Assembly: GCA_030614685.1 (NCBI GenBank)
Contig: JAUWTO010000010.1
Coordinates: 1 to 32,863, forward strand
Source: Candidatus Aminicenantota bacterium
GTDB taxonomy: Bacteria; Acidobacteriota; Aminicenantia; Aminicenantales; Aminicenantaceae
Reading direction: 5' to 3'
Length of the DNA: 32,863 nucleotides
Shown here: positions 159 through 30,390 of the stretch, piece by piece
Layout: each line of letters starts with the position of its first letter
Position numbering within the stretch: position 1 is the first letter of the stretch
The notes under the pieces: model-generated
Databases searched by the model: none
The model's input: the letters and a program-made list of their open reading frames with translations, nothing else
What the model was told of the DNA's origin: nothing
Position numbers and translations under genes: made by a program

Positions 159-530
159 TTATTTCTGTTTGCTTCTGTAATCCTCTATCGCCTTATGAAG
201 CGCGTCCGCACCCAGGTTGGAGCAGTGCATTTTGTTTCCGGGCAGACCGCCCAGCTCATCCGCCACATCCTGGTTTGTGATCTGCATGGCCTCATCCAGG
301 GTTTTGCCCATGGCCATCTCGCTCACCATGCTGGAGACAGCGATGGCGGCGCCACATCCGAAGGTCTGGAATTTCACCTCACTGAGGCGGTCCTCTTTGA
401 CCTTGATATAAAACGTCATCATATCGCCGCACACGGGATTTCCGACCTCTCCGACGCCATCGGCGTCCTTGAGGACTCCCACGTTGCGAGGATCGGAGAA
501 ATGCTCCATGACTTTGTCACTGTACATCAT
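159..530 (-). CDS. iscU: IscU/NifU-type Fe-S cluster scaffold protein
   Basis: 123 aa; the three conserved Cys contexts are present (GNPVCGD, FGCGAAIA, KMHCSNLG); overlaps the 3' end of the iscS-like gene. Confidence 0.93.
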   Translation of the reverse strand: MMYSDKVMEHFSDPRNVGVLKDADGVGEVGNPVCGDMMTFYIKVKEDRLSEVKFQTFGCGAAIAVSSMVSEMAMGKTLDEAMQITNQDVADELGGLPGNKMHCSNLGADALHKAIEDYRSKQK

Positions 531-1710
531 TGTTGTTCTCCTCCAGATATTGGGTGTAGAGCGGCGACATCTTGCGCAGTTTCTCTATGTTGGGAGAGAA
601 TATCTCGATGAAATAGTCGATGTCTTCCTGTGTCAGGCTGTCGATCAGGCTGAAGACCAGCGAGCCCTGAGCCAGGGCGTGATCCAGCCCCATGGCCAGC
701 AGGACATGGGATACCTTCAGGGATTTGGATGTGCAGGCAGACCCGCTGGAGACCGCGATCCCCTGCATGTCCAGGGTCAAGAGCATGGCTTCCCCCTCCA
801 CAAAGGCCACGCAGAAACTGGCATGATGAGGCAGCCGGTTGACCGGATGGCCGGTGAGGACCACATGTTCCATCTCGAAGGACAGGTGCTGGACGATGCG
901 GTCCCTCAGGGGCTGTACCCTCGCTATTCGGTTTTCCATCTCACGGCCGGCGATCTCGGCCGCCTCACCCAGGCCCACGATACCCGGCAGGTTTTCAGAC
1001 CCGGCTCGCTTGCCGTGTTCCTGGATCCCGCCGTCGATAAGCGGCAGGATGCCGGTCCCCTTTCGGACATAAAGGGCCGCGCTGCCGTTGGGGCCGTAAA
1101 ACTGGTTCCCTGCCAAGCTGAGCGCCTGGACGCCCAGTTCCTGGACATCCACCGGGATCACACCCGCCGCGGCCACGGCATCGGTGTGCAGCACAACCCC
1201 CGCCTGCCGGCATACCTCGGCGATCTCCTGGAAATGAGGCTGTATGGTTCCCACCTCGCTATTGGCCAGCATGATCGAGACCACGGTCGTCTCCGGCATT
1301 ATGGCCTTACGGATCTCATCCGGGTCGATCACAGCCTGCTGGTCAACGGGGACCTGTGTGGACGTATAACCCAATCGTTCCAGGCTCTTCACCGAATTCA
1401 GGACTGAGAGGTGCTCGATCGCCGATACAACGCTGTGCTTCCCCTGCTTGCGTTTGGCCAGGGCCAGCCCCTTCAGGGCAAAATTGTTGGATTCGGTTCC
1501 GCTGGACGTGAAATAGATCTCAGAAGGCTCGGCATTGATGAGCGCGGCGACCCTGGCCCGGGCTCCTTCCAGAGCCTCCGCCGCCGTCTGACCGAAGGAG
1601 TGCAGGTTCTGGGGATTACCGAACCGCTCCCCGAGATAGGGAAGCATGGCTTCCTTGACCCGGGGGTGCAGCGGAGTCCCGGCGATCCGGTCCATATACA
1701 CTTTTCTCAT
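517..1710 (-). CDS. IscS/NifS cysteine desulfurase homologue with altered PLP pocket
   Basis: 397 aa aligned by eye along the IscS fold (FTSSGTESNN, AIEHLSVL, LHTDAV, SSGSACTS), but the SGHK(I/F)YGPKG motif reads AGNQFYGPNG. Confidence 0.9.
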   Translation of the reverse strand: MRKVYMDRIAGTPLHPRVKEAMLPYLGERFGNPQNLHSFGQTAAEALEGARARVAALINAEPSEIYFTSSGTESNNFALKGLALAKRKQGKHSVVSAIEHLSVLNSVKSLERLGYTSTQVPVDQQAVIDPDEIRKAIMPETTVVSIMLANSEVGTIQPHFQEIAEVCRQAGVVLHTDAVAAAGVIPVDVQELGVQALSLAGNQFYGPNGSAALYVRKGTGILPLIDGGIQEHGKRAGSENLPGIVGLGEAAEIAGREMENRIARVQPLRDRIVQHLSFEMEHVVLTGHPVNRLPHHASFCVAFVEGEAMLLTLDMQGIAVSSGSACTSKSLKVSHVLLAMGLDHALAQGSLVFSLIDSLTQEDIDYFIEIFSPNIEKLRKMSPLYTQYLEENNNDVQ

Positions 1711-25959: not shown

Positions 25960-26964
25960 ATGGACAGGATGAGGGTCATCATAATGGGATGCGGCATCAT
26001 GGGCCGCAGGGTAGCAGAGGCACTGCTGCCCAAACAAAGTTTCGAAATCGTGGGCGCCCTGGACATCAACCCGGAGTTGACAGGCAGAGACCTGGGAGAA
26101 CTGTTCTCGAGCCCACAGGACACAGGCATTGTCATCGCGAACGATGCGGAGGCGCTGTTTACGCGAGTAAAAGCAGACGCCGTAGTGCAGACCACCCTGT
26201 CTCATCTTACGACCGTGCTTCCTCAGATCGAGCAGTGCCTCCAGGCGGGCCTGAATATCGTATCGACCTGCGAGGAGCTGTCCTTCCCCTGGAAGCGACA
26301 CCCTGAGCTGGCCTCTCGAATCGACAATATGGCCAAAGAGGCCGGCGTGACCGTGGTGGGGACCGGGATCAATCCCGGGTATTTGATGGACTCGCTGCCC
26401 CTGGCGCTCACCGCACCCTGCCTGCGTGTCGATTCCATACGGGTGACACGGATGATGAATTCCGCCCGGAGACGCATCCCCTTCCAGAAAAAGGTGGGAA
26501 GCAATATGACTCCCGAGGAGTTCCGCCAGAAGATCGATGACGGGATCATCACCGGGCATGTGGGCCTGCTGGAGTCGATCAACATGATCGCTTCAGGGCT
26601 GGGATGGAAGCTGGATGAGGCCGTGGAACTTCCTCCGGAGGCCGTGATTGCGGAGACGGAGACACCGAGCGGGATGGGAACCGTGCCGCCCGGGGACGTG
26701 ATCGGCCTGAGGAGTGTGGCCTATGCTAAAAAGGACGGGGAAAAAATCATTACCCTCGAGTTCATCGCCAACGCCGGTGTCAAACAAGAGTATGACGAGA
26801 TCGAGATCAAGGGCGAACCCGACATACACGAAAAGATCCTGGGTGGTGTCCATGGAGACACGGGGACCGTATCCATGACCATCAACACCATCCCCAAGAC
26901 CATCGCTGCGGTACCCGGTCTCAAGGTGATGAGCGAGCTCCCCGCCCCCTGCGCCACCCTATAG
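25960..26964 (+). CDS. 2,4-diaminopentanoate dehydrogenase-like / DapB-related oxidoreductase
   Basis: 334 aa; N-terminal Rossmann MRVIIMGCGIMGRRVAEALL; GTGINPGYLMDSLPLALTAPC. Confidence 0.75.
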   Translation: MDRMRVIIMGCGIMGRRVAEALLPKQSFEIVGALDINPELTGRDLGELFSSPQDTGIVIANDAEALFTRVKADAVVQTTLSHLTTVLPQIEQCLQAGLNIVSTCEELSFPWKRHPELASRIDNMAKEAGVTVVGTGINPGYLMDSLPLALTAPCLRVDSIRVTRMMNSARRRIPFQKKVGSNMTPEEFRQKIDDGIITGHVGLLESINMIASGLGWKLDEAVELPPEAVIAETETPSGMGTVPPGDVIGLRSVAYAKKDGEKIITLEFIANAGVKQEYDEIEIKGEPDIHEKILGGVHGDTGTVSMTINTIPKTIAAVPGLKVMSELPAPCATL

Positions 26965-26980: not shown

Positions 26981-28366
26981 TTATTTGCGGAATTTCTTGA
27001 TAAACTCTTCGACTTCGGGCACCCCTCCCTGATAGATCAGGTAGCCATTGTAGGGTTCCCGCTCAGTGATGTCATCGTTCACGGGCGTCAGCATGATCTC
27101 ATTGACCTTCCCCAGGTCATTCGTTTGGCCCAATGCCCAGCCCAGTTTTATGTAGGCGACCTCAGGAAGCATGTTCTGCAGGGGGATGACGCCCAGGTCC
27201 AGCATGTCGCGTCCGGTCTCGTACACATACATGTGGACATAACCCCACAGCGTCTGCACGGTCATGTAGATCGCCACCCCCTTTTCCACGGCCCGCTTGA
27301 TGGCCGGGTAAAGCGGCTTGTTCACATGGCCGAGGCCCGTCCCCGCGATCACGATCCCTTTATAGCCGTTGTCAACCAGGCAGTCGATGACATCCGGCAT
27401 CATGTTGGGATAGTAATAGACGAGCGTGACCTTCTCCTCAAAATAGGGCAGGGCGGTCACCTTCCTGTCTCTGCGGCGCGGATTGTAGGGATGCTTGAGC
27501 ATCTCCACGCCGTCCTGCACAACCTTGGCCAGCGGGATGTCTCCAATGGTCCGGAAGGCGGAGCGGTAGGAGGAGTGCATCTTGCGAACCCGGGTTCCCC
27601 GGTGCAGGAATCCGTAGTCATCCGAAGTGGGCCCGAACATGCTCACCATGACTTCGGCGATGTCGGAGTGACCTGCCGCATAGGCGGCATGCATCAGGTT
27701 CAGGGCGGCATCCGAGCTGGGCCGGTCAGAGGACCGCTGCGAGCCCACCAGCACCACCGGCACCGGAAGATCGTCCAACATGTAGGTCAGGGCGGCGGCC
27801 GTGTGGTGGAGCGTATCGGTCCCGTGCCCGATGATGACCCCATCGATCCCCTTCCGGATCTCCTTGGCTATGGCCACGGCCAGGGTCTTGTACTGCTCAG
27901 GCCCCATGTTCTCACTGAAGACCGCAAACAGCTTGTCGGTGGTCAGGTTGCAGATATCCGCCAGTTCCGGAACGGCGCCGTACAGCTCTCCCGGGGAAAA
28001 GGCCGGGATCACGGCCCCCGTGCGGTAGTCCAGCCGGGATGCGATCGTACCGCCGGTCCCGAACAGCTTGACATTGGGTTTGTCATCCGAATACGGGAAT
28101 TCCTTCTCAGGGATCTGGTAATGTGCCTTCTGATACCCCAGCTCTGTGATGGATCGAATGGTGTTGACCTTGATCCCGATATTGTAGCCCGTGGCGATCT
28201 TAAGGACGATGTGCTGGTCGTCATCGCTCTCCGATCGGGGCAGGATGGTCCCTTCAAAAAGCCCGCGGGTCGTGTCCATCCTGACCAGGCCCCAGACACG
28301 AGCGTGAAGGTCCTGCAGGACCTTCAGCGCCTGCCCCTTGTAGCCCTGGAAGATGTCGTCGCTCAT
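26981..28366 (-). CDS. gatD: Archaeal-type Glu-tRNA(Gln) amidotransferase subunit D (asparaginase-like)
   Basis: 461 aa; N-terminal FEGTILPRSESDDDQHIVLKIATGYNIGIKV, then VKLFGTGGTIASRLDY, HGTDTLHHTAAAL; coupled to gatE. Confidence 0.92.
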   Translation of the reverse strand: MSDDIFQGYKGQALKVLQDLHARVWGLVRMDTTRGLFEGTILPRSESDDDQHIVLKIATGYNIGIKVNTIRSITELGYQKAHYQIPEKEFPYSDDKPNVKLFGTGGTIASRLDYRTGAVIPAFSPGELYGAVPELADICNLTTDKLFAVFSENMGPEQYKTLAVAIAKEIRKGIDGVIIGHGTDTLHHTAAALTYMLDDLPVPVVLVGSQRSSDRPSSDAALNLMHAAYAAGHSDIAEVMVSMFGPTSDDYGFLHRGTRVRKMHSSYRSAFRTIGDIPLAKVVQDGVEMLKHPYNPRRRDRKVTALPYFEEKVTLVYYYPNMMPDVIDCLVDNGYKGIVIAGTGLGHVNKPLYPAIKRAVEKGVAIYMTVQTLWGYVHMYVYETGRDMLDLGVIPLQNMLPEVAYIKLGWALGQTNDLGKVNEIMLTPVNDDITEREPYNGYLIYQGGVPEVEEFIKKFRK

Positions 28367-30390
28367 TGTCCCGCACCTTCCCGGTTCGAATGGGCCCGGG
28401 CCTGGGAGTTGTATTCCTTCACGTGTCGATGAAGCTCAGGAAGCGAGATGTTGCCCCGAGCAGAAGGCCGAAGCTGGCCCATCATCCAGCGTGTCCGGGC
28501 CCCGGAGTCTTCAGAGATCCCGGACTCCTCTGCGATCGTGCAGAGCACTGGGATCTTCTCCAGGATCTCCGCCTCCGCGACCTTCTTGAACTTGATGGCC
28601 GCCAGGCTGGATTCGATATCTATCTGGGGATGCTGATACCGCTCCTCGATCATCTCCCGAGCGAGGGCAGGCTCGATGCCTTCCTTTTTGAGGTGCTCCA
28701 TCAGGTCATAGATGACCTCATAACGGAAATCCGGGGACCGGGGATGCCTACCCTCCACATGCTTCAGCGTATGACCGAACAGGGTCCCGGCAAATACCGG
28801 ATCGACCTCAAGCTCCTCGATGATGCGTGTCAATAGCGGAAACAGGTTGTTCCGCAGGATGTAGGGATAGGTGTCCTCGGGAATCCCCCACTCCGTCATC
28901 CTGGCATACATCTCATGGACATCGAGCGGCAGCCGGCTCCGAATCTCTTCAATGGCGTCGTAGTCCAGAGAGATGGGCACAGAGTCTGTATCCGGGTACA
29001 TCCGATTGGGGCCGGGCAGCACTCTCTCAAATACCGTGGTCCCATCGGAAAAGGATTTTCGGCTCTCCCGGGGCACACCCTCAAAGGCCAGCTGACACCG
29101 CTCCTCCACGGTTTCCAGGGCTGTGGAGATATCCTCCTCAGGCCCCCAGAGCAGGACCAGGGCATCTTCCTCGTCAGCCTGCAGTTCATTCCGGATGCGA
29201 TCCCAAAATTCTGGGGGAAGGACAGGATCGAGCTCTTCGGAGTGGATCATGTTGGGCTTGTCGATGCAGGCGATGACCTTCAGCCGGCCGCTCAGCTCAT
29301 CTGCGAACATTTGGCCCGGTTGGGTGAAATGCGAAAGCATGCCCCGAAAACCCGGGAGCCTCAACGCGGAACAGCCATACCCTGATTCACGGGCTTTGGC
29401 GACCTCCGGCTGGATCAGCCCATACTCTTCCGCATCCAGGGATTTTGAAGAGATCCGCCAGCCTCGAGGATCCTGGACGGTTTTCTTAAGCAGGTCCCGG
29501 ATCCGCAGGAGGGACCACTGCCGGAAGACCTCGTTGTGGGTCAGTTCCGGGATCCACCGGTTGTGCGATACACCCTTGATCTCGACCCTGTCTCCCCCCC
29601 GGCAGCTGACATTGACATCCTCTCTCCCGGCACCGATGCCGACCAGCACTTTTCCAGTGCTGCGGTTCAGGAAACGGATATACTGGGCGCCTTCCTGCAC
29701 CTCATCGGGATGGGAAAAATCCGGATAGGTCACCGTCTCGATCAGGGGTATGCCGAGCCGGTCAGTCTGGTACACGCGGACGTGCCCCACATCCGAAACT
29801 TCCCGGCAGGAGTCCTCCTCCAGGGACAGTTGAATGATGCGGACCGTCTTGTTCTTCAGCTGGATCACGCCTTCCACACCCAGGATGGCGGTCCTCTGGA
29901 AGCCGGTGGGGATGCTCCCATCCAGATACTGCTTGCGGATGATGTGCACCTCCCCCACGATGTTGAGCCTGCACAGCAGCGAGAGCTCAAGGGCGATCTC
30001 CAGCGCCTTCCGGTTCAGGGGAAAGGGAGGTGTGTCGTCGATGTCATAGGTGCAGGCGGTCTCATTTCGGATCTGGTACACGATCTGCTTCCGGGTCTTG
30101 AACTCCATCAGGGCAGTGCCGTCATACTCGCCCAGTTCGCTCAGGGTGGGCCGCATGTGACGGATGATCTCCGCATCATACTCGCCTTTCCGGTTGTACC
30201 GGCCGGCCGGACAGTTGCAGAAGAGTTTTTTCCGTGTTTTCAGCTGCTGATGGACCTCAATCCCGGACTTGAAACCCACTCGGTCGTAATCCTCCTGCGT
30301 GGCCTTGGCTCGAGGGACATACCCCACGGCCTCGCGTGAGGTTTGGTAGTTTTGTCTGGGATCGATTTTTTCGTTTTTCATCAGGAACAT
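28363..30390 (-). CDS. gatE: Archaeal-type Glu-tRNA(Gln) amidotransferase subunit E
   Basis: 675 aa; FKSGIEVHQQLKTRKKLFCNCPA; GAD-like insertion near 29000-29300; C-terminal YqeY-like tail; 4-nt overlap with gatD. Confidence 0.92.
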   Translation of the reverse strand: MFLMKNEKIDPRQNYQTSREAVGYVPRAKATQEDYDRVGFKSGIEVHQQLKTRKKLFCNCPAGRYNRKGEYDAEIIRHMRPTLSELGEYDGTALMEFKTRKQIVYQIRNETACTYDIDDTPPFPLNRKALEIALELSLLCRLNIVGEVHIIRKQYLDGSIPTGFQRTAILGVEGVIQLKNKTVRIIQLSLEEDSCREVSDVGHVRVYQTDRLGIPLIETVTYPDFSHPDEVQEGAQYIRFLNRSTGKVLVGIGAGREDVNVSCRGGDRVEIKGVSHNRWIPELTHNEVFRQWSLLRIRDLLKKTVQDPRGWRISSKSLDAEEYGLIQPEVAKARESGYGCSALRLPGFRGMLSHFTQPGQMFADELSGRLKVIACIDKPNMIHSEELDPVLPPEFWDRIRNELQADEEDALVLLWGPEEDISTALETVEERCQLAFEGVPRESRKSFSDGTTVFERVLPGPNRMYPDTDSVPISLDYDAIEEIRSRLPLDVHEMYARMTEWGIPEDTYPYILRNNLFPLLTRIIEELEVDPVFAGTLFGHTLKHVEGRHPRSPDFRYEVIYDLMEHLKKEGIEPALAREMIEERYQHPQIDIESSLAAIKFKKVAEAEILEKIPVLCTIAEESGISEDSGARTRWMMGQLRPSARGNISLPELHRHVKEYNSQARAHSNREGAGQ

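Follow-up and report, generated by a model that had tools for sequence, protein, structure and literature searches.

The gatE-gatD pair of the window (the whole stretch of 32,863 nucleotides that was analysed) encodes an archaeal-type GatDE amidotransferase that has kept its active sites, is under purifying selection, falls into a bacterial clade and co-occurs with glutaminyl-tRNA synthetase (GlnRS). We regard it as the working GatDE of a bacterial branch, which likely has an auxiliary or corrective function beside GlnRS, amidating Glu-tRNA(Gln), and to this reading we assign a probability of about 0.5.

GatDE is regarded as archaeal, a premise of the original prediction that agrees with the literature: a 2022 review describes GatDE as present only in archaea, and as reading the D-loop and the A1-U72 pair of tRNA-Gln, and states that GlnRS is lacking in archaea (PMC9499178), and a 2021 review likewise limits it to archaea (PMC8007984). 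The accessible parts of a survey of bacterial GluRS and GlnRS (PMC3927822) and of a survey of GatCAB occurring with GlnRS (PMC4206432) report no bacterial GatDE, and in open-access papers we found neither a prior report of one, an earlier mention elsewhere being possible, nor biochemistry of any bacterial GatDE. Scenarios for LUCA and for the evolution of tRNA-Gln have been built on archaeal-only GatDE and on archaea without GlnRS (PMC9499178), and hundreds of bacterial GatDE genomes, nearly all of those tested having GlnRS, do not fit such archaea-only scenarios. Bacterial GatDE is a widespread and overlooked branch, and its context, beside a GlnRS that should make it unnecessary, is more surprising than its reading as a direct archaeal import. 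What GatDE does where GlnRS exists, how a U1-A72 tRNA-Gln is read, and in which direction genes moved between the domains are questions that can now be tested.

The gatE-gatD locus

The features of the locus are the following.

28363..30390, minus strand: gatE, 675 amino acids; archaeal-type GatE, the tRNA-binding and transamidase subunit
26981..28366, minus strand: gatD, 461 amino acids; asparaginase-type amidohydrolase subunit with a GatD_N domain
28363..28366, minus strand: ATGA, the 4 bases in which the gatE stop and the gatD start overlap

The coupled gatE-gatD pair that had been predicted is found at exactly these coordinates, and the 4-base overlap is consistent with translational coupling; an alternative in-frame ATG of gatE lies 3 codons downstream. 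GatD scored 506.6 bits against NCBIfam PRK04183 (cut-off 310) and 501 bits against TIGR02153 (cut-off 324), and GatE scored 410 bits against TIGR00134 (cut-off 319.6) and 453 bits, slightly below the cut-off of 456, against PRK04028. The claim of an archaeal-type enzyme in a bacterium holds. The gatE-gatD adjacency also occurs in relatives, at most loci with enough flanking sequence, and a neighbour analysis across 80 loci revealed no conserved partner gene other than gatD. Over the pairs computed, dN/dS was 0.05-0.22 for GatE and 0.01-0.04 for GatD, and this purifying selection shows that the bacterial GatDE is functional. Automatic annotation pipelines presumably already label bacterial gatD and gatE genes.

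Active sites and predicted fold

As had been predicted from the sequence, GatD combines an N-terminal GatD domain with an asparaginase core, since Pfam matched GatD_N (residues 35-74, 46.8 bits), Asparaginase and Asparaginase_C. In GatE, the GatB_N match extends across residues 42-480 on a profile of 277 positions, which indicates the presence of an insertion. The GAD-like nature ascribed to this insertion was upheld: PF02938 (GAD) matched in 18 of 28 close GatE homologues (best E 4.5e-5), while its match in the window's own GatE was weak (13.5 bits, E 0.09). By alignment, T107, T183, D184 and K262 of GatD correspond to T101, T177, D178 and K254 of Mth GatD, which we take to be the catalytic Thr, Thr, Asp and Lys, and H47, E191 and E218 of GatE correspond to H15, E157 and E184 of Mth GatE, presumably its catalytic residues. 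An AF2 model of GatE built from 28 homologues (mean pLDDT 77) had the archaeal GatE structures 2d6f and 1zq1 as its best PDB matches (E about 1e-36 to 1e-38), and the fold is thus predicted to be like that of archaeal GatE. A YqeY-like tail in contact with the tRNA D-loop is a feature of GatE; no Pfam GatB_Yqey was detected in the window's protein, the tail of which is helical in the model, and this domain was matched in 9 of 28 members of the type I clade described below.

Compared with the archaeal GatDE of Methanothermobacter (2d6f) and Pyrococcus (1zq1), the window's enzyme has in common both subunits, the domain order, the Thr/Thr/Asp/Lys residues of GatD, the H/E/E residues of GatE, the GatB_N core with its GAD-like insertion and, by prediction, the fold. 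It differs in forming part of a separate bacterial clade and in having a canonical GlnRS and a bacterial-type GluRS alongside; moreover, tRNA-Gln has U1-A72 in the window's genome and A1-U72 in archaea, and no GatB was found in this genome, whereas archaea commonly make use of GatCAB for Asn. With the MurT/GatD peptidoglycan amidotransferase the window's enzyme presumably shares the gene name GatD alone, as we take that enzyme to be an unrelated glutamine amidotransferase of a different family.

GlnRS, AsnRS and GatB in GatDE carriers

The window's genome encodes a canonical, full-length and intact GlnRS (750.6 bits against the glnS model, cut-off 425.8) and an AsnRS (476 bits, cut-off 342.6), the non-discriminating AspRS model remaining below its cut-off, and one GluRS was found (495 bits). 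No AspRS was found, presumably due to incompleteness of the assembly, which is 83% complete. Checking the genome for gatCAB, as had been proposed, revealed no GatB in this 83% complete assembly, GatE being the only GatB_N protein. The implication that GatDE stands in place of GatCAB as the route to Gln-tRNA nevertheless fails, since this genome has a canonical GlnRS, as do nearly all of the bacteria with GatDE that were tested (66 of 70, and 38 of the 38 high-quality genomes). In the 20 genomes reached via type I loci, for which the GlnRS signature was checked, GlnRS was full or near-full in 18, fragmentary in one and missing in one. GatB was found in none of these 20 genomes and in none of nine carriers from another family of the same class, while overall it accompanied GatDE in 31 of 79 carriers, including G145, whose complete genome, a single contig, has all three of GatDE, GatB and GlnRS. 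Among the carriers tested there was no genome where GatDE clearly replaces GlnRS, and the co-occurrence with GlnRS argues that bacterial GatDE is not the one-route solution of archaea.

An amidotransferase retained beside GlnRS and AsnRS is also seen in Deinococcus, Bdellovibrio and Legionella, where it is GatCAB and is explained by tRNA-dependent Asn synthesis in the absence of Asn synthetase (PMC4206432); unlike in the case described there, the genome of the window has GatDE with AsnB present. Five relatives from the window's order (G008, G015, G018, G022 and G028) have GatB and two GluRS without GlnRS, the set known from Helicobacter-like GluRS1/GluRS2 with GatCAB, and their gene content is that of the classical indirect route. 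In contrast, the GatDE-positive genomes of the window's family have GlnRS and no GatB. Relics of gatB were detected in three GlnRS-bearing relatives without GatDE, which suggests a shift of the window's family from GatCAB to GlnRS, and GatDE seems to be present in part of its GlnRS-bearing lineages. The relics lie at L347 3527-3819, L349 2230-2343 and L348 1544-1636, one of them in a single-contig genome; the GatB_N fragments of G005, G011 and G014 were considered as GatE relics and rejected, being relics of gatB.

tRNA-Gln and the specificity of GluRS

Both tRNA-Gln isoacceptors of the window's genome (UUG and CUG) have U1-A72 and G73 and are thus of bacterial type, the archaeal-style A1-U72 being absent from both. 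The tRNA-Gln(UUG) matches that of a same-genus genome, in which no Gat system was found, at 100% identity and that of a GatB-dependent relative at 97%; the identity in a same-genus genome without GatDE means that no co-evolution of tRNA and enzyme is visible. In the alignment, one-base shifts in G013, G021 and G023 reflect genes without encoded CCA. Two truncated tRNA-like pieces resembling the 3' parts of tRNA-Gln(CUG) and tRNA-Asp, with no ARAGORN call, were seen at contig ends at L269 ~207-274 (G000 C262) and L270 ~239-304 (G000 C129).

We compared GluRS proteins at the alignment column, set with Tma and Synechococcus references, that we take to be Thermus residue 358, the discrimination residue. 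The GluRS found in the window's 83% complete genome has the discriminating-type Arg at this position, a single residue and as such a weak predictor, and Arg is also present in G000, G004, G013 and G032 and in each of the ten GatDE-positive Bacteroidales that were aligned. With Arg kept in the window's genome and in these ten Bacteroidales, no dedicated source of Glu-tRNA(Gln) is visible there. In the five GatB-dependent relatives without GlnRS, the longer GluRS has lost the Arg (G, G, G, N and T), and the GatDE-positive G017, G009 and G010 similarly have a long GluRS without it (G, K and K), which points to a supply of Glu-tRNA(Gln) in these three. The GluRS genes of relatives (L051, L055-L070 and others) fall into two types, with the discrimination residue tracking the presence of GatB and the absence of GlnRS; a third, short type, found next to GlnRS, misses ~45 residues of the catalytic-domain insertion. 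The GlnRS gene of G009 (L352 3545-5248) is full length with one in-frame TAG, which may be an error, a pseudogene mutation or a readthrough site.

The role of bacterial GatDE

In the proposed mechanism, GatD would release ammonia from glutamine or asparagine at its asparaginase-type Thr/Thr/Asp/Lys site, while GatE would bind the misacylated tRNA, activate the carboxylate and then amidate it. Glu-tRNA(Gln) would arise by GluRS mischarging, or from a tRNA-Gln-charging GluRS where one exists, and GatDE would convert it to Gln-tRNA(Gln) without being, as in archaea, the sole route to this product. Glu-tRNA(Gln) as the substrate and a corrective role are what we infer for the bacterial enzyme. The first base pair of tRNA-Gln bears on this in both directions: U1-A72 has been tied to bacterial amidotransferase recognition (PMC9976931), and its retention in tRNA-Gln(UUG) of the window's genome counts for a Glu-tRNA(Gln) role, whereas its difference from the A1-U72 read by archaeal GatDE counts against it. 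A simple backup role appears redundant, since many genomes have GatDE, GatB and GlnRS together.

The main rival of the corrective Glu-tRNA(Gln) role is a switch of substrate, whereby the target of GatDE would be Asp-tRNA(Asn), a misacylated tRNA of some other kind or a carboxylate that is not on tRNA, and GatDE would no longer have a role in Gln-tRNA formation. The nearly constant presence of GlnRS and the frequent presence of GatB speak for a switch, as do the long branch of type I GatE (1.17 changes/site), a tRNA-contacting tail that is not recognizable as GatB_Yqey in the window's GatE and is so in just 9 of the 28 members of type I, and a GluRS that looks discriminating in most carriers. 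We nevertheless consider it rather unlikely, because AsnRS is present and AsnB (asparagine synthetase) was found in 39 of 50 genomes, the window's among them, leaving no evident need for Asp-tRNA(Asn) amidation and weakening its candidacy as a means of Asn supply, because conservation is very strong in the catalytic core and in GatD, and because no conserved neighbour gene points to another substrate. Still more improbable is that GatDE provides the main route to Gln-tRNA(Gln), as in archaea, with GlnRS being dispensable or inactive. Although no GatB was found in the window's genome, the GlnRS of the GatDE-positive G009 carries an in-frame TAG, and G009, G010 and G017 have a non-Arg GluRS, the window's genome has an intact GlnRS of full length and high score, all 38 high-quality carriers have GlnRS, and genomes of the same family live with GlnRS and without any Gat system found. 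We favour the corrective amidation of Glu-tRNA(Gln) beside GlnRS. It is possible, and we propose it tentatively, that bacterial GatDE represents a distinct functional class in GlnRS-bearing bacteria, which may repair mischarged tRNA by amidation rather than supply bulk Gln-tRNA, or may act on a new substrate, its tail having diverged and its recognition of tRNA having changed (U1-A72).

Spread and phylogeny of bacterial GatDE

Searching GTDB, with one genome per species, we found GatE relatives at no fewer than 582 loci and examined the best 80 of these. Two of the 80 were Aminicenantes GatE proteins (66-67% identity), and the others came from Bacteroidetes/Bacteroidales MAGs and subgroups (57-63%, best segment). 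Among the matches listed, the nearest bacterial relatives were 56-67% identical for GatE, with dozens of Bacteroidales MAGs at 56-62%, and 70-84% identical for GatD. GatE was present in 58 of 396 sampled Acidobacteriota genomes (41 of 211 genera) and in 23 of 298 sampled Bacteroidota genomes. Across the full alignment, GatE proteins from other families of the window's order shared just 39-43% identity with that of the window, which means that this order has two or more GatDE lineages. No GatDE relatives were found in viral contigs, and plasmids yielded matches only to a GatE region of Natrinema, an archaeon, and to distant GatB.

Quick trees were built from 80 GatE rows, three of them archaeal, and 73 GatD rows, two of them archaeal, with one archaeal row being very long-branched. 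In both trees, which are congruent in their main groups, every bacterial row was set apart from these two to three archaeal rows with an SH-aLRT of 100. The window falls into an Aminicenantes clade (SH-aLRT 100 for GatE and 97 for GatD), and this is nested with Bacteroidales in the type I clade (98 for GatE and 100 for GatD). The original prediction had proposed horizontal acquisition from Archaea and had named a bacterial GatDE clade as the placement speaking against it; this placement is what we obtained, which indicates that the recent step was a spread between bacteria and not a direct transfer from archaea. A direct or recent acquisition from an archaeon by the window's lineage is accordingly very improbable: the protein family is archaeal-type, and the only GatDE with solved structures that we found are the Pyrococcus and Methanothermobacter homologues, but the closest relatives listed are bacterial, as against 34-35% identity to archaeal GatE in structural alignment, the bacterial rows group away from archaea, and the GC3 of gatE and gatD matches that of the neighbour genes. 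The best explanation of the sequences is that a GatDE branch spread between Acidobacteriota and Bacteroidota, the window's copy being of the type common to Bacteroidales. In the more distant past the bacterial clade as a whole may have come from archaea, given trees that hold two to three archaeal rows.

Integrity of the contig and neighbour genes

Contamination or a chimeric contig, the other objection foreseen in the original prediction, has next to no likelihood even though the assembly is a MAG of 397 contigs (83% complete): bacterial genes flank the pair on both sides within a contig of 32.8 kb, its GC3 (gatE 0.74, gatD 0.81) is within or near the 0.75-0.81 of ten neighbour genes, and at least five further GatDE-positive Aminicenantes genomes have the same clade; a very recent import is unlikely on the same grounds of GC3 and close relatives. 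As to the neighbours described as clearly bacterial, PilZ, FtsE/FtsX and RecO were confirmed, while VWFA remained sub-threshold and MgtE was assigned by sequence reading only.

The window also has a NifS/IscS-like cysteine desulfurase (517..1710, minus strand; 454 bits against the NifS model, under the cut-off of 531), for which we found no link to the gat genes. The Lys-less IscS noted earlier is real: at the expected PLP lysine motif the protein reads 'SLAGNQFYGPNG', with Lys replaced by Gln. Convergent with gatD lies a gene (25960..26964, plus strand) for a 2,4-diaminopentanoate dehydrogenase-like protein, which scored 292 bits against the Ord model and did not reach its cut-off of 400.
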